The position numbers and the translations under genes were made by a program. From Pseudomonadales bacterium (GTDB lineage: Bacteria; Pseudomonadota; Gammaproteobacteria; Pseudomonadales; Azotimanducaceae): a stretch of 35,922 nucleotides of DNA. The DNA lies in NCBI GenBank assembly GCA_016779385.1, contig JADHNT010000017.1, positions 1 to 35,922 of the forward strand, given 5' to 3'. The first letter of the stretch is position 1. Each line of letters begins with the position of its first letter. This document shows positions 11,860 through 35,669 of the stretch, in pieces. Under the pieces are notes generated by a model. The model was not told the origin of the DNA and did no database searches. It saw only the letters and a program-made list of their open reading frames with translations.

Positions 11860-11863
11860 GAAA

Positions 11864-12040
11864 ATCCCCGGGAATGCCGCTGCTGACTGTGCCCTTGAAC
11901 CCAGCGGTCCAAGGTGGAGGTTCAGGTCTGGCCAAAGGCTTTCCGACGCGCGGACGTGCACACCGGCTTTAACACTTCACCTCCGGGTAGTGCTATAAGG
12001 CTCGAGAGCTTCATCAGCTGGCGAACACCCCAGGGCGCGC
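11864..12040 (-). ncRNA. ssrS: 6S RNA
   Basis: 6S RNA binds the sigma70 RNA polymerase holoenzyme as a mimic of an open promoter and tunes transcription in stationary phase. Read on the minus strand, the 5' part has CCCTGGGGTGTTCGCCAG and the 3' part has GTTCAAGGGCACAGTCAGC then GCGGCATTCCCGGGGA. These are hallmark 5' and 3' strands of gammaproteobacterial 6S RNA, and they pair to close the long hairpin. A perfect TATAAT (12045-12050, minus) stands about five bases before the inferred 5' end; I see no good -35. The position between zapA and the 5-FCL gene is the conserved ssrS locus. The ends are estimates (about 177 nt; E. coli 184). Confidence 0.92.
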
Positions 12041-14541: not shown

Positions 14542-15743
14542 GTCCCGTCCCGAAGGCCCCTCCACTGGCGGTGATTGGTGGGGGCATCGTGGGCTGCGCC
14601 CTGGCCCTTGCCTTGGATCACGCCGGGGTACCCGTGGTTTTGCTTGACCAGGGACCGCCCCCGGGGCCCGAGAGCGACCCTCGCCGGGGTGTGGCCCTCG
14701 CGCCGGACGTGCTCGCGTTCCTTACTGGGCTTGAGGTTGATGTGCCTCATACGCCCTACGCCCACATGACCGTCTGGGACCACAGCGGCCCGGCGGCCCT
14801 GCACTTTTCCGCCGCCGAGGTCGGGCTTCCCCGCCTCGGGGCCATGGTGGAGAACGACCGGCTCCGCTGGGCGCTCACCCAGACCCTCGGTGCCCGTGGC
14901 GTCCCCCTTCGCTGGGGGGCGCGGGTGTCCCAGGTTCGCTGGCCGAGCCTCGGCGTCGGTCCGCAGCTTACCCTTGAGGATGGCGAGACCCTGCCCGTAG
15001 CGCTGGTTTGCGCCGCCGATGGCGGCCATTCACCGCTGCGTGGCCTCGCGGGCATCGGGGTCCAGGATGAGCCCATGCATCAGCGCGCTGTGGTAACGGC
15101 GGTGGTAACGGAGCGGCCCCACGAGGCAACGGCCTGGCAACGCTTTCTACCCACTGGCCCCCTGGCCTTCCTGCCCCTCGATGATGATGCCGAGGGACGC
15201 TATCGGTGCTCCGTGGTGTGGAGCGCCGATGAAGACCGGGCGCGAGCCCTGGAGGCGTTGGACGACGACGCCTTCTGCGCGGCGCTGAGCGAGGCCTTTG
15301 AATATCGCTTGGGCGCGGTGTTGTCCGCGGCGCCCCGAGCGGCCTTTCCCCTGCAGCAGCGCCACGCGGAGCGCTACGCGGCCCCGGGCCTCGTGCTGCT
15401 GGGGGATGCGGCCCACGTGGTCCACCCCTTGGCAGGGCAGGGCGTCAACTTAGGTCTGCGGGACGTCATGGCCCTCGTGCCGACGCTGGGGGCCGGGCTT
15501 CGCCAGCGCACCCTCGGTGACCCCGCTCAGTTCGCGGCCTATGAGCGGCAGCGGCGCCGGGATAATGCCCTTATGCTGCGCGCCTTCAGTGCCCTGAAAC
15601 GCGGATTTGCGCCGGCCTCCGGCCCCACGGCCTGGCTCCGTCAGCAGGGCCTGGGCTTCCTTGATCATCAACCGGTATTGCGCCGGCGCTTCATGGCGCA
15701 GGCCCTGGGGCTTGCCCCCGAGGCCGGCGCTGCCCAGCCCTAA
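14538..15743 (+). CDS. UbiH/UbiI-family FAD monooxygenase of ubiquinone synthesis
   Basis: Flavin hydroxylase introducing a hydroxyl on the ubiquinone ring, using O2 and NAD(P)H; acts at the inner-membrane Ubi complex. It has 401 residues. The N-terminal FAD-binding motif is VIGGGIVGCALALAL, CAADGGHSPLR is the DG motif, and GDAAHVVHPLAGQGVNLGLRD is the second FAD motif diagnostic of this family. E. coli and many relatives have two paralogues here (ubiH then ubiI); this locus has one, so UbiH (C4/C6) versus UbiI (C5) cannot be decided by eye. It overlaps pepP by four bases and is followed 17 bases later by gcvT. Confidence 0.9.
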   Translation: MSPVPKAPPLAVIGGGIVGCALALALDHAGVPVVLLDQGPPPGPESDPRRGVALAPDVLAFLTGLEVDVPHTPYAHMTVWDHSGPAALHFSAAEVGLPRLGAMVENDRLRWALTQTLGARGVPLRWGARVSQVRWPSLGVGPQLTLEDGETLPVALVCAADGGHSPLRGLAGIGVQDEPMHQRAVVTAVVTERPHEATAWQRFLPTGPLAFLPLDDDAEGRYRCSVVWSADEDRARALEALDDDAFCAALSEAFEYRLGAVLSAAPRAAFPLQQRHAERYAAPGLVLLGDAAHVVHPLAGQGVNLGLRDVMALVPTLGAGLRQRTLGDPAQFAAYERQRRRDNALMLRAFSALKRGFAPASGPTAWLRQQGLGFLDHQPVLRRRFMAQALGLAPEAGAAQP

Positions 15744-15760
15744 ATCTCAGGAGTCTCCCC

Positions 15761-16855
15761 ATGAGCAGCGCTTTGAAACGTACCCCCCTTGCGCAGGCCC
15801 ACGAGGCCGCGGGCGCTAAGATGGTCCCTTTCTTTGGGTGGGAGATGCCCCTCCACTATGGCTCGCAGCTCGAAGAGCACTATGCGGTGCGAGGCTGCGG
15901 TGGCATTTTCGATGTTTCCCACATGACCGTGGTCGATATTTCTGGCCCCGATGCGACAGCCTACCTACGATGTCTCCTGACCCAGGATGTGACGACCCTG
16001 GCGCCGGGGCAGGCCAGCTACGGCGCGTTGCTCAATAACGCCGGCGGCGTGATCGACGACCTCATAGCCTATCGCCGCACCGAGGGCTATCGCCTCATCG
16101 TGAACGCTGCTACTCGGGACGAGGATCTTGCCTGGCTTGAGGCCCATCGTACCGGCGCCGTAGAGATCACGGAGCGCGCCGAGCTCGCCATGCTCGCCGT
16201 GCAGGGCCCGGAAGCCTTGGCCCGGGCTACGGCGTGGCTAGGCGCCGCGGCGCCGACCCTGGCGGCCCTACCTCCCTTCGCCTTCTTGGAAGACGAGGAT
16301 CGGTTCCTAGCGCGCACCGGCTACACGGGAGAGGACGGCTTTGAGGTGGTGCTGCCGGCAGCGGACGCCGTCGACGCCTGGGGCATGCTCTTGGCCGCGG
16401 GCCTGGCTCCGGCGGGGCTGGGCGCCCGGGATACGCTCCGCCTCGAAGCTGGCATGAACCTCTACGGGCAGGATATGGATCAGACCGTATCGCCGCTGGA
16501 AGCCAACATGGGCTGGACCGTGGCCTGGGCCCCGGAGGATCGCGCTTTCCTTGGCCGGGACGCCCTGGCGGCGCAGAAGGCTACGGGGGTGCCGACGCGG
16601 CAGGTGGGGCTGCGCCTAGAGGGCAAGGGCGTGCTTCGGGCCGGCCTTGAGGTTTTCCAAGAAGGTCCGGACGGGGCTTGGACCCCCGTGGGCACCCTCA
16701 CCTCCGGGGCCTTTTCCCCGACCTTAAAGGAGGGCATCGGGCTGGCGCGCATCAAAGCGACCGTCCCCAGGGCAGCCATCCTCGCAGTGGAGCTGCGTGG
16801 TCAGTACCGGCGAGTGCTGCGTTGCCGCCCACCGTTCATCAAAAAGCACTCCTGA
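15761..16855 (+). CDS. gcvT: Glycine cleavage system T protein (aminomethyltransferase)
   Basis: Transfers the methylene unit from the aminomethyl-lipoyl arm of GcvH to THF, giving 5,10-methylene-THF and ammonia. It has 364 residues (E. coli 364). Visible are TPLAQAHEAAGAKMVPFFGW, GIFDVSHMTVVDI, LLNNAGGVIDDLIAYR with the catalytic Asp, RTGYTGEDGFEVVLP, LGARDTLRLEAGMNLYG, and GTLTSGAFSPTL. The C-terminal strand (VELRGQYRRVLRCRPPFI) is a little divergent but complete. The ATG follows AGGAGTCTCCCC. The leader is only 17 bases, so no glycine riboswitch fits here. It is probably read from the ygfB-pepP-ubiH transcript. Confidence 0.96.
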   Translation: MSSALKRTPLAQAHEAAGAKMVPFFGWEMPLHYGSQLEEHYAVRGCGGIFDVSHMTVVDISGPDATAYLRCLLTQDVTTLAPGQASYGALLNNAGGVIDDLIAYRRTEGYRLIVNAATRDEDLAWLEAHRTGAVEITERAELAMLAVQGPEALARATAWLGAAAPTLAALPPFAFLEDEDRFLARTGYTGEDGFEVVLPAADAVDAWGMLLAAGLAPAGLGARDTLRLEAGMNLYGQDMDQTVSPLEANMGWTVAWAPEDRAFLGRDALAAQKATGVPTRQVGLRLEGKGVLRAGLEVFQEGPDGAWTPVGTLTSGAFSPTLKEGIGLARIKATVPRAAILAVELRGQYRRVLRCRPPFIKKHS

Positions 16856-16964
16856 AGGCATGAAAGGCCTTCATGCTGCACGGGGAAAGGCTCCCATAAG
16901 GCGCCTAAGCGCGTAGAATGCTTTGCAAATTTAGCCACTCCGATCAACCTGGGAGACCCTGCCC
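16856..16964 (+). promoter_or_regulatory. gcvT-gcvH spacer with two inverted repeats
   Basis: A 109-base spacer. It starts with a perfect 7-bp hairpin GCATGAA-AGGCC-TTCATGC (16858-16876), which has no T-run and so is not a classical terminator. A second short inverted repeat GGCGC-CTAA-GCGC lies near 16900; the same 13 bases recur at the corA/MFS junction. TAGAAT at 16914-16919 could be a -10 box for gcvH, though no -35 is visible. The gcvH ribosome-binding site is GGGAGACC. Confidence 0.35.
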
Positions 16965-17357
16965 ATGAGTGATATCCCCGCCGATCTCAAATACATCGCT
17001 TCCCATGAATGGGTGCGCGTAGCAGGGGATGGCACCGTCACCGTAGGGGTCACGGATCATGCCCAGGACGCCCTCGGGGATGTGGTCTACGTAGAACTTC
17101 CGGAGGTCGACGTCGTGCTGAGCGCCGGGGACGAAGCCGGCGTCGTGGAGTCGGTGAAGGCGGCTTCCGATATCTACACGCCGCTCTCGGGAACGGTGAT
17201 CGCCGTGAACAGCACGCTGGAAGATGCTCCGGAGCAGGTCAACAGCGATCCCTATGGGGAAGGCTGGTTCTTTAAGCTCCGCCTCGCCGATGCGGGGGAG
17301 CTCGACGAGCTCCTGGACGCTGACGGCTACGCGGACGTCTGCGACGCCGACGCTTAA
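16965..17357 (+). CDS. gcvH: Glycine cleavage system H protein
   Basis: Lipoyl carrier that shuttles the aminomethyl group between the P, T and L proteins. It has 130 residues (E. coli 129). The lipoylated lysine is Lys65 in [14 protein letters not shown]. The N-terminal [11 protein letters not shown] and the [19 protein letters not shown] segment are standard. The C-terminal [13 protein letters not shown]-like segment (here [15 protein letters not shown]) is complete, with an Asp-rich end. The ATG follows GGGAGACCCTGCCC, a near copy of the tkt and pgk start modules. An intrinsic terminator starts four bases after its TAA, separating it from gcvPA. Confidence 0.97.
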
Positions 17358-17360
17358 GTT

Positions 17361-17387
17361 CTTGCCCCGGCCCCGGGGCGAGTTTTT
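17361..17387 (+). terminator. Intrinsic terminator/attenuator between gcvH and gcvPA
   Basis: CTTGCCCC pairs with GGGGCGAG (8 bp, one G-U pair) around a six-base loop GGCCCC, and is followed directly by TTTTT. This is the clearest rho-independent terminator shape in the window. It lies inside the gcv cluster, not at its end, so it may set a step-down, or conditional termination, between gcvTH and gcvPAB. Confidence 0.7.
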
Positions 17388-17396
17388 CCACGGGCC

Positions 17397-17435
17397 CTCC
17401 CCTAGCGGGCGTTTGCTCTGCTAGGCCTATGGGAG
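17397..17435 (+). promoter_or_regulatory. Hairpin burying the gcvPA ribosome-binding site
   Basis: CTCCC (17397-17401) and CTAGC (17402-17406) form a contiguous ten-base arm. They pair with GCTAG (17420-17424) and GGGAG (17431-17435), leaving a six-base bulge GCCTAT and a 13-base loop. GGGAG is the only ribosome-binding sequence before the gcvPA ATG at 17445. The folded leader would therefore hide the start signal. Complementarity is seen directly; regulation is inferred. Confidence 0.5.
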
Positions 17436-17444
17436 CACAGTGAA

Positions 17445-18821
17445 ATGCCGTTCATTCCCCACACGGAAGGCGACACGAAAGCCATGCTCGAAACGCTGGG
17501 CGTTCCCAGCATCGAGTCGCTTTTCGATGAAATCCCTAAGGGCTTCCTCGCCGCGCCTCTGGCGCTTCCCGAGGGGGAAAGCGAGATGGCGCTTATGGCG
17601 GACTTTGCCGCCCGGGCCCGCCGCGATGACAACGTCCTGTGCTTCGCCGGTGCCGGCGCCTACGACCATCATATTCCCTCGGCTGTTTGGGATTTGGTGA
17701 GCCGCGGGGAAATCATGACGGCCTATACGCCCTATCAGGCGGAAGCGAGCCAGGGCACGCTGCAAACCATCTACGAATACCAGTCCATGATCGCCAAGCT
17801 GACGGGCATGGACGTGGCGAACGCGTCCGTTTACGACGGCGGTTCAGGCCTCGCCGAGGCGGCCCTGATGGCTGTGAGGTCCGCGCCCCGCAAGCACGCG
17901 CGTACGCTGCTCCTCGCTGGGGGCCTAAACCCTCGTTATAGGGCGGCCTGTGAAGCCATCGTGCAGCACCAGGGGCTCACGCTCCGCGATCTGCCTTTGG
18001 AGGCTGACGGCACCCTAAGCCCGGCCACCCTTCAGGCGGCCATGGACGAGGACTGCGCCGCCCTGGTGATCAGCCAGCCGAACTTCTTTGGCGTGCTGGA
18101 AGATATCCATGCGCTCACGGACCAGGCCCAGGCGGCGGGGCTTTTAGTAATTGCGGTCGTCAATCCCATCGCCCTAGCGGTGCTCACGCCTCCCGGGGCC
18201 TGGGGAGCGGCGGGGGCCGATATCGTAGTGGGCGACGGCCAGCCCCTGGGCATTCCCATGGCTTCCGGGGGGCCGTACTTTGGCTTTCTGTGCGCACGGC
18301 AGAAGCTGGTGCGGCAGATGCCCGGGCGCATCGTGGGTCGTACCGTCGACCTCGACGGAAAGACTGGCTATGCCCTCACCCTGCAGGCGCGGGAACAGCA
18401 CATCCGCCGCGGTAAGGCGACCTCAAACATCTGTACCAACCAAGGCCTTCTTATGACCGCCGGCACCATCTACATGGCGCTGCTGGGCCCGGAGGGGCTC
18501 AGCCGGGTGGCGGGGCACTGCTATGGCCAGCTTCGCGCGCTCCTTGCGGCGCTCACGAGCCTGCCGGGGGTGCGCTCTATGCATAGCAGCGTGCACTTCC
18601 ACGAGGCGGTGATCGAGCTTCCCGTCCCCGCGAAGGCAGTGGTGGAGGCCCTCGCCGGGCAGCGCATCCTCGCCGGGGTGGCCCTGAGCGACTACTGGCC
18701 CGAGCGCACCCATGAACTCCTCGTGTGTGCGACGGAGAAGCGCACCGCCGCAGATATCGCGCAATACAAGAAAGCCCTGGGGCAGGTACTGGAAACCCTG
18801 GGTACGGAGGTCGCCCAATGA
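17445..18821 (+). CDS. gcvPA: Glycine dehydrogenase (decarboxylating) subunit 1
   Basis: N-terminal subunit of the split P protein, which decarboxylates glycine and loads the aminomethyl group onto GcvH. It has 458 residues, normal for the two-subunit form; E. coli has one fused 957-residue GcvP. The N-terminus [20 protein letters not shown] is typical of Gcv[22 protein letters not shown] and [19 protein letters not shown] are conserved stretches, and [19 protein letters not shown] appears in slightly changed form ([19 protein letters not shown]). It overlaps gcvPB by four bases (ATGA), as expected for subunits made in equal amounts. Translation may be controlled by the hairpin over its ribosome-binding site. 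Confidence 0.95.
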
Positions 18822-20332
18822 GCCTTCACCTTGAAGATGGCGGCATCGCCCCTGGCGCAACCCTATTTGATCAAAGCGTCCCGGGCCGGAGCGCTGGAGC
18901 GCAGCTGCTCCCGCCGCCCCCACCCCTCGATGAACTCCCCAAGGGCCTTCGCCGGGCGGCCCCGCCGGCGCTCCCCGAAGTTTCCGAGCTTCAGGTGGTG
19001 CGGCACTTCACCCGCCTGTCGGGGCGTAACTTTGCCATCGATCGGCAGTTTTACCCCCTGGGCTCCTGCACCATGAAGTACAACCCCCGGGGGGCGCACC
19101 GGGCGGCGAGCCTGCTGGGGTTCCTGGGTCGTCACCCCCTGGCGCCGGCGTCTCTGTCCCAGGGGCTCTTAAGCGTTTTCCATGACCTTCAGGAAATGCT
19201 GGCGGAAATCACGGGTATGGACGCCGTATCCCTCGCGCCTATGGCCGGTGCTCAGGGCGAATTCGCTGGCGTGGCCATGATTCGGGCCTATCACGAAGCC
19301 CGCGGGGATCACGAGCGGCAGGAAATCATCGTTCCCGTAGCCGCTCACGGGACGAACCCGGCGACCGCGGTGATGTGCGGTTATCGGGTCCGGGAGGTGA
19401 AGGTTGATGCGTCTGGAGATGTCGATCTCGAGGATCTGAAGGCGGCGCTGGGGCCCCAAACCGCTGGGCTCATGATGACCAACCCGAGCACCTGCGGGGT
19501 TTTTGAGCGCAACATCGGCGCCATTGCCGATGCGGTGCACGAAGCCGGGGGGTTGCTCTACTACGATGGGGCCAACCTGAACGCCATCTTGGGCAAGGCG
19601 CGCCCCGGGGACATGGGTTTCGATGTTCTGCACATGAACCTGCACAAAACTTTTGCTACGCCCCACGGCGGCGGCGGGCCCGGCGCAGGCCCGGTGGGCG
19701 TTGGGGAGCGGCTCCGGCCCTATCTCCCCTCCCCGCGGGTGGTGAAGGAAGAAACGGAAGACGGCGCGCCGCACTATCGTTGGGAAGCGGCGGTGGAAGC
19801 GCCGAACTCCATCGGTCCCCTCTCGGCCTTTATGGGCAATGCGGGTATTTTAGTGCGGGCCCTGGCCTACGGCCGCATGCTGGGTCGGGATGGGCTGGTG
19901 CGGGTGGCGGAATATGCCACCTTAAATGCGAACTATCTGGCGAAGCGGCTCAACGACGCGGGTCTCACCCTCGCCTACCCGGAGCGCCGGGCCAGCCACG
20001 AATTCATCTTGACCTTCGGGGCGCTGGAGAAGCGCACGGGGCTGACGGCGATGGATTTGGCCAAGCGCCTTCTGGACTTTGGCGTCCATGCGCCCACCAC
20101 CTACTTTCCTCTGCTGGTGCCCGAGTGCTGGCTGGTGGAGCCTACGGAAACGGAGACGAAGGAAACCCTCGATCACTTCGTGGCCGTGCTCCAGCGTCTG
20201 CTGGAGGAAGTGGACAGCAACCCGGAGCAGATTCGCGGGGCGCCCTGGACCCTACCCGTGCGCCGTTTGGACGACGTTCGCGCGGCGCGCCAGCTTGATC
20301 TCGTCTGGCAGGGCCCGCCCGCGGCCGCCTAG
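18818..20332 (+). CDS. gcvPB: Glycine dehydrogenase (decarboxylating) subunit 2
   Basis: PLP-binding C-terminal subunit of the split glycine decarboxylase. It has 504 residues. The PLP lysine is Lys277 in [19 protein letters not shown]. Also visible are [47 protein letters not shown] and [10 protein letters not shown]. The frame is open to 18725, but [19 protein letters not shown] at 18818 starts inside the gcvPA stop and is preferred. The gene ends in a CTAG palindrome whose other strand supplies the stop of the convergent DUF255 gene. No lpd gene for the L protein is in the window. Confidence 0.96.
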
Positions 20333-35624: not shown

Positions 35625-35669
35625 CAGGCTCCCCTCCCTCGAACGATGAATGGCCCCCCCGGCGTTGCG

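Follow-up and report, generated by a model that had tools for sequence, protein, structure and literature searches.

The window (here, the entire 35,922-nt stretch of Pseudomonadales DNA that was analysed) carries on its plus strand the genes of the glycine cleavage system in the order gcvT-gcvH-gcvPA-gcvPB, with the P-protein encoded as two separate subunits. Each gene matches its NCBIfam equivalog model above the cut-off, and the gap between gcvH and gcvPA holds a terminator-like stem-loop followed by a second foldable block that extends over the gcvPA ribosome-binding site (RBS). The features are as follows:

15761–16855, plus strand: gcvT, aminomethyltransferase (T-protein); TIGR00528, 381.8 bits (cut-off 235.85)
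16965–17357, plus strand: gcvH, H-protein; TIGR00527, 167.5 bits (cut-off 115.85)
17361–17382, plus strand: hairpin 1, a 9-pair GC-rich stem-loop of a predicted terminator; recognised by folding and comparison with shuffles, stem present in all five genus species
17383–17387, plus strand: T-tract of the predicted terminator, TTTTT, read from the sequence
17388–17435, plus strand: foldable block upstream of gcvPA, including a hairpin at 17401–17425; seen in all five species of the window's genus, with only weak scores in the other genera searched
17431–17435, plus strand: GGGAG, the Shine-Dalgarno-like motif of gcvPA, located 9 nt upstream of its ATG; predicted to be mostly paired
17445–18821, plus strand: gcvPA, P-protein subunit 1; NF001696, 574.5 bits (cut-off 364)
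18818–20332, plus strand: gcvPB, P-protein subunit 2; NF003346, 697.2 bits (cut-off 441; 18821–20332 scanned), start taken from the sequence

The ATG of gcvPB overlaps the stop codon of gcvPA (ATGA), and 87 nt separate the end of gcvH at 17357 from the start of gcvPA at 17445. A consensus scan for promoters of the sigma-70 type called no site in 16850–17460, so that gcvPA is likely supplied by read-through; a promoter belonging to gcvPA itself was rejected on the same scan. No tandem repeats were found in 16800–17500. An N-terminal extension of gcvPA was discarded, given the in-frame upstream stop codon in all five genus species introduced below, and no ATG, GTG or TTG was seen by eye in frame between this stop and the gcvPA ATG in the five sequences. 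A leader peptide within the gap was dismissed as well: the corresponding frame ends in a TAG common to the window, G001, G002 and G004, and is broken by indels in G003. Upstream, in the gcvT–gcvH gap, a hairpin is predicted at the gcvT stop codon (16853–16873), and a TAGAAT hexamer (16914–16919) lies inside a stretch, GCGTAGAATGC, that is identical in all five genus species. This stretch may represent a separate gcvH promoter, one that the consensus scan did not call; if real, it would alter the layout of the transcription unit proposed below.

A first-pass annotation had described an intrinsic terminator with an 8-bp stem at 17361–17387, directly after gcvH, and a second hairpin over the RBS of gcvPA, both inside the 87-nt gap. 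The coordinates proved exact, and the GC-rich stem and the TTTTT directly following it are present, but folding gives nine pairs rather than eight. The stem starts 3 nt past the gcvH stop codon. With a predicted energy of −17.1 kcal/mol, hairpin 1 is more stable than expected by local chance (z −3.67, with 0 of 200 dinucleotide shuffles as stable; z −3.02 and 3 of 500 in a larger shuffle set). At the scale of the window, which is GC-rich, such structures are less exceptional: the plus strand holds seven hairpin-plus-T sites at −16 kcal/mol or below, among which hairpin 1 ranks sixth by energy, and when that strand was shuffled ten times, each shuffle contained between 0 and 6 such sites. As hairpin-plus-T sites also arise by chance across the window, the case for hairpin 1 relies partly on its location immediately behind a stop codon. 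It is flanked by gcvH and gcvPA, with no sigma-70-like promoter called downstream of it within the scanned region.

The genus sample comprised five genomes, namely, the window species and G001 to G004. All five retain the order gcvT-gcvH-gcvPA, with a gcvH–gcvPA gap of 87 or 94 nt, and in all five a stem begins 0–5 nt past the gcvH stop codon. In G003, the inner part of the stem is largely different in sequence and still pairs. The number of shuffles (of 500) reaching the stability of the post-gcvH stem was 6 in G001, 8 in G002, 6 in G003 and 15 in G004. The T content of the 8 nt following the stem is more variable, with five T in the window species, four in G001, G002 and G003, and three in G004. 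Only the window species has a good U-tract and that of G004 is poor, so the relatives may terminate weakly at this site or not at all. The whole-gap alignment contains two hairpin 1 pairs that changed on both sides; as the alignment of G003 is doubtful, they were not counted.

The second structure fared differently. GGGAG is the sole Shine-Dalgarno-like motif seen by eye before gcvPA, as had been noted at first pass, and the bulged hairpin over it can be drawn as originally described, with CTCCC (17397–17401) pairing to GGGAG, CTAGC (17402–17406) pairing to GCTAG (17420–17424), and a six-base bulge. Within the same block, 17388–17396 can instead pair with 17424–17432, and an alternative fold of CCACGGGCC with GGCCTATGG lies within 0.7 kcal/mol, so that 17388–17435 has at least two folds of near-equal energy, each using bases of GGGAG. 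GGGAG is predicted to be mostly paired in all five species. Nonetheless, the folding of the block does not exceed chance (z −0.33, with 68 of 200 shuffles as good), and opening GGGAG costs 5.9 kcal/mol compared to a mean of 5.7 (sd 2.0) with the upstream sequence shuffled, that is, the site is hidden no more than composition predicts. The corresponding costs in G001 to G004 are 4.8, 4.8, 5.8 and 3.5 kcal/mol, none in the upper tail, with 69%, 68%, 31% and 87% of the shuffles, respectively, costing at least as much to open. The RBS hairpin is thus indistinguishable from what GC-rich sequence gives. A general trend towards structured gcvPA starts was considered and rejected, since the starts of gcvPA (n = 55) and those of gcvH (n = 64) had the same mean unpaired probability, 0.47.

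The covariation search suggested at first pass yielded a mixed answer. The 48-nt block is recognizable in all five species, whereas none of the pairs in the RBS structures changed on both sides, be it among the 18 pairs of the RNAalifold structure or the 10, 16 and 14 pairs of three hand-drawn ones; five sequences this closely related give the comparison little power. The outer helix drawn originally loses two positions to a deletion in G003, and in the alternative outer helix two changes remain pairable as U-G. A covariance model built from the five genus blocks and run on 98 sources (the window and 97 loci) scored above 18 bits only at the five genus places. In 61 genomes of the family, searched with stricter filters in a sample that listed neither G002 nor G003, the best match outside the genus reached 20.2 bits (E 0.08).

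Comparison with G003 initially seemed to indicate strong selection on the block, which is identical at 40 of 46 positions, with two further columns deleted, compared to 47% identity at the 4-fold sites of the gcv genes. This conclusion was withdrawn once the whole window had been aligned to G003, a control based on one species pair, as other gaps turned out to be about as conserved. Pooled over 22 genes, 4-fold sites are 48% identical to G003, and the ten intergenic gaps, that between gcvH and gcvPA included, range from 53 to 90%, with the latter at 75% (65 of 87). Its most conserved 40 nt reach 0.875, a value equalled in the gap at 35625–35669, and 33% of the 2778 48-nt windows outside recognised genes, some of which hold unrecognised genes and 6S RNA, are conserved at least as well as the block. 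Gaps in this region are generally constrained, and the gcvH–gcvPA gap is accordingly not exceptional. The gap at 35625–35669, identical to G003 at 39 of 45 positions against 48% at the pooled 4-fold sites, also shows constraint. Furthermore, the segment 23470–29602 has two matches in G003, one on contig C22 (94%) and the other, over overlapping parts, on contigs C45 and C12 (75–81%), which probably means that the G003 assembly also contains DNA of another strain or species.

No glycine riboswitch (RF00504) was detected in the window at the gathering score or in 15700–17600 at E values up to 10, in agreement with the first-pass annotation, and none was found in the five genus genomes, compared to matches in 2 of 14 control genomes. 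More generally, no Rfam family matched 15700–17600 even at E values up to 10. Rfam matched the window at a single place, a 6S RNA (RF00013, 91.8 bits) on the minus strand at 11861–12039, part of which shows full identity to G003 when compared in 48-nt windows.

Taken together, these results weigh on two interpretations of the gap in which the block is the regulatory element. The first-pass annotation had suggested a dedicated cis-regulatory leader that would open the gcvPA RBS in response to a ligand, a protein or an sRNA. The persistence of the block in five species with high identity to G003, the predicted pairing of GGGAG in each of them and the two changes tolerated as U-G speak in favour of such a leader, but compensatory changes are lacking from the RBS structures, sequestration stays at the level of shuffled sequence, conservation is that of an ordinary gap in the one species pair aligned, the loci and genomes searched outside the genus gave only weak scores, and no Rfam family matched. 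We consider such a leader improbable, and a ligand-binding one is a weak candidate, with no positive support beyond ordinary conservation. Among the publications listed as matches, judged by titles and abstract openings, no obvious counterpart of a gcvH–gcvPA leader was apparent besides the papers cited here. In Neisseria gonorrhoeae, a translational tandem glycine riboswitch similarly places RNA structure near an RBS in a glycine-cleavage operon (PMC13104608), but it precedes gcvT, whereas the site in the window precedes gcvPA and no aptamer was found there. Alternatively, 17388–17435 could be a DNA operator, with a repressor bound to CCTAGC-N13-GCTAGG acting as a roadblock. The 6-base arms of this palindrome (17401–17425) are perfect and are kept in four of the five species, the window included, with one arm base changed in G003. 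The palindrome nevertheless occurs once in its own genome, the longer motif does not recur there with fewer than three mismatches, and no sigma-70-like promoter is nearby, making an operator very improbable. For the same reason, that is, its single copy, the block was not regarded as a repeated element of the REP or operator kind.

In contrast to the block, terminator-like hairpins recur at this junction beyond the genus. A survey of 110 loci (30 + 80), mostly from Gammaproteobacteria, provided 104 gcvH–gcvPA and 100 gcvT–gcvH gaps, of which those of 30–200 nt were kept, after removal of near-identical gaps and of the further copies contributed by the window's genus (9 of 53 and 13 of 67, respectively). 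Hairpins of −10 kcal/mol or lower with at least five T in 8 nt, located in the first 90 nt of the gap, were found in 8 of the 44 gcvH–gcvPA gaps (0.62 on average, and at most 4, over 40 shuffles) versus 0 of the 54 gcvT–gcvH gaps (shuffle mean 0.33), a difference with a Fisher p of 0.0011 if loci are treated as independent. When at least four T were allowed, the counts were 12 of 44 (shuffle mean 1.82) versus 1 of 54 (0.55), with p 0.00043 under the same treatment of loci as independent. The gcvT–gcvH control gaps differ from the gcvH–gcvPA gaps in length and composition, for both of which the shuffles allow. These counts supersede those of a first, looser survey that retained duplicates (27 of 58 against 13.5 expected at gcvH–gcvPA; 6 of 67 against 4.1 at gcvT–gcvH).

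The survey matches are of uneven quality: the window, L014, L079, L090, L093 and L096 have clear stems, and L132, L144 and L152 look weak. In L079, L090 and L096, as well as in L085, which passed the looser threshold, 30–36 nt separate the hairpin from the gcvPA start, too short a distance for an ordinary promoter, and these junctions should therefore be read through. The stem in the window is nearer to the stop codon than those of the other survey matches, with one weak exception (L152). Under the strict threshold, 36 of the 44 gcvH–gcvPA gaps have no terminator, and many junctions are too short for one, indicating that there is no general need for a terminator in split P-protein operons. Two gaps showed features of their own. 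In the 354-nt gap of L018, the initial sequence recurs downstream as an inverted repeat (by eye), resembling a small inserted element, and a separate terminator-like hairpin follows the inverted repeat near gcvPA. In the 54-nt gap of L011, an early CTCCC is complementary to the GGGAG of the gcvPA RBS (by eye), a simple pairing that it shares with the window, the two sequences being otherwise different.

Termination at this place has a published precedent. Work on the Dickeya dadantii gcvTHP operon (PMC9239193) places an internal termination site after gcvH, with an inferred probability of 71% ± 22%, and states that this agrees with E. coli studies; a passage search of the main text of one E. 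coli source (PMC6131387) gave no mention of gcv. In the E. coli K-12 gcvH–gcvP gap (118 nt), a simple scan returned no terminator on the gcv strand, although one is reported in print, and the sequence can form hairpins (by eye). The Dickeya arrangement resembles that proposed for the window in that termination falls directly after gcvH, before the P-protein gene, and is leaky, lowering P relative to T and H; it differs in having a single gcvP, rather than split gcvPA and gcvPB, and in that termination was deduced from RNA data, whereas in the window it is predicted. A more distant parallel is offered by ABC-importer operons of cellulolytic Clostridia, in which the stoichiometry is set by internal terminators that combine a GC-rich stem with a poorer U-tract (PMC9045158). 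There, too, a GC-rich stem with a poor U-tract lies between an abundant first subunit and scarcer later ones, but the genes and the phylum are different, and the effect was tested by reporters and Northern blots.

The explanation that we favour, with somewhat better than even confidence, is that gcvT, gcvH, gcvPA and gcvPB are transcribed as a single unit in which gcvH is followed by a leaky intrinsic terminator that keeps P-protein below T and H. A fraction of the RNA polymerases would halt at about 17387, leaving a gcvTH message whose 3′ end would be protected by hairpin 1, and the remaining polymerases would read through into gcvPA-gcvPB. Partial termination after gcvH would place T and H in excess over P, in a roughly fixed ratio, and the foldable gcvPA RBS may cut P-protein translation further in a constitutive manner that would not require a ligand. 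The single unit, the role of hairpin 1 in ending transcription, the extent of termination and the protein ratio are what we infer from the gene order, the stable TTTTT-tailed hairpin, the presence of a hairpin in all five species, the recurrence of terminator-like hairpins at the junction and the Dickeya precedent. The earlier proposal that P-protein output is set apart from T and H is thus upheld by way of an internal terminator instead of a responsive leader. Against this explanation stand the weaker U-tracts of the relatives, the 36 gaps without a terminator, the negative scan of the E. coli gap, the possible gcvH promoter and the proximity of the stop codon: bringing the stop codon of a translated upstream gene from 28 bp to within 5 bp of a terminator is reported to have cut its activity from about 90% to less than 10% (PMC4824070).

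As the stem begins 3 nt past the stop codon, ribosomes translating gcvH should hamper the terminator, which would make it either weak or a translation-gated switch. The gated variant is possible but unlikely in our estimation. A ribosome following the polymerase closely would keep the stem from forming, which would allow transcription of gcvPA-gcvPB; if translation of gcvH fell behind, the terminator would form and shut off P-protein. Since the stem starts 0–5 nt past the gcvH stop codon in all five species, a ribosome finishing gcvH would block it in each of them, and the supply of P-protein would track translation of H-protein without a ligand or a leader peptide. A further alternative, to which we assign a similarly low likelihood, is that hairpin 1 terminates little and serves mainly to stabilise the 3′ end of the gcvTH message or as an RNA-processing landmark, the imbalance between T/H and P arising from differing message half-lives. 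This would fit a stem that is present in five of five species while the T count drops to four or three in the other four, and a stop codon so close that active translation should repress termination (PMC4824070). It accounts less well for the good TTTTT of the window species, for the hairpins with at least five T in eight found in 7 of the 43 other de-duplicated gaps and for the termination deduced in Dickeya (PMC9239193).

Returning to the leaky terminator, this half of the arrangement is mostly ordinary: both the type of element and its location are known, with similar stop signals on record there in other bacteria. Publications listed as matches contained nothing usable on H-to-P ratios in bacteria. 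In plant mitochondria, H-protein is in excess over P-protein. If the leaky terminator is the right explanation, termination after gcvH would be a recurring means of holding P-protein below H and T, spanning several mostly gammaproteobacterial lineages with differing sequences and both split and unsplit P-protein operons, and for the glycine cleavage system the H-to-P ratio would become a testable design feature. The variant in which the terminator abuts the stop codon, if right, would provide a simple case of translation of one subunit gating transcription of the next.
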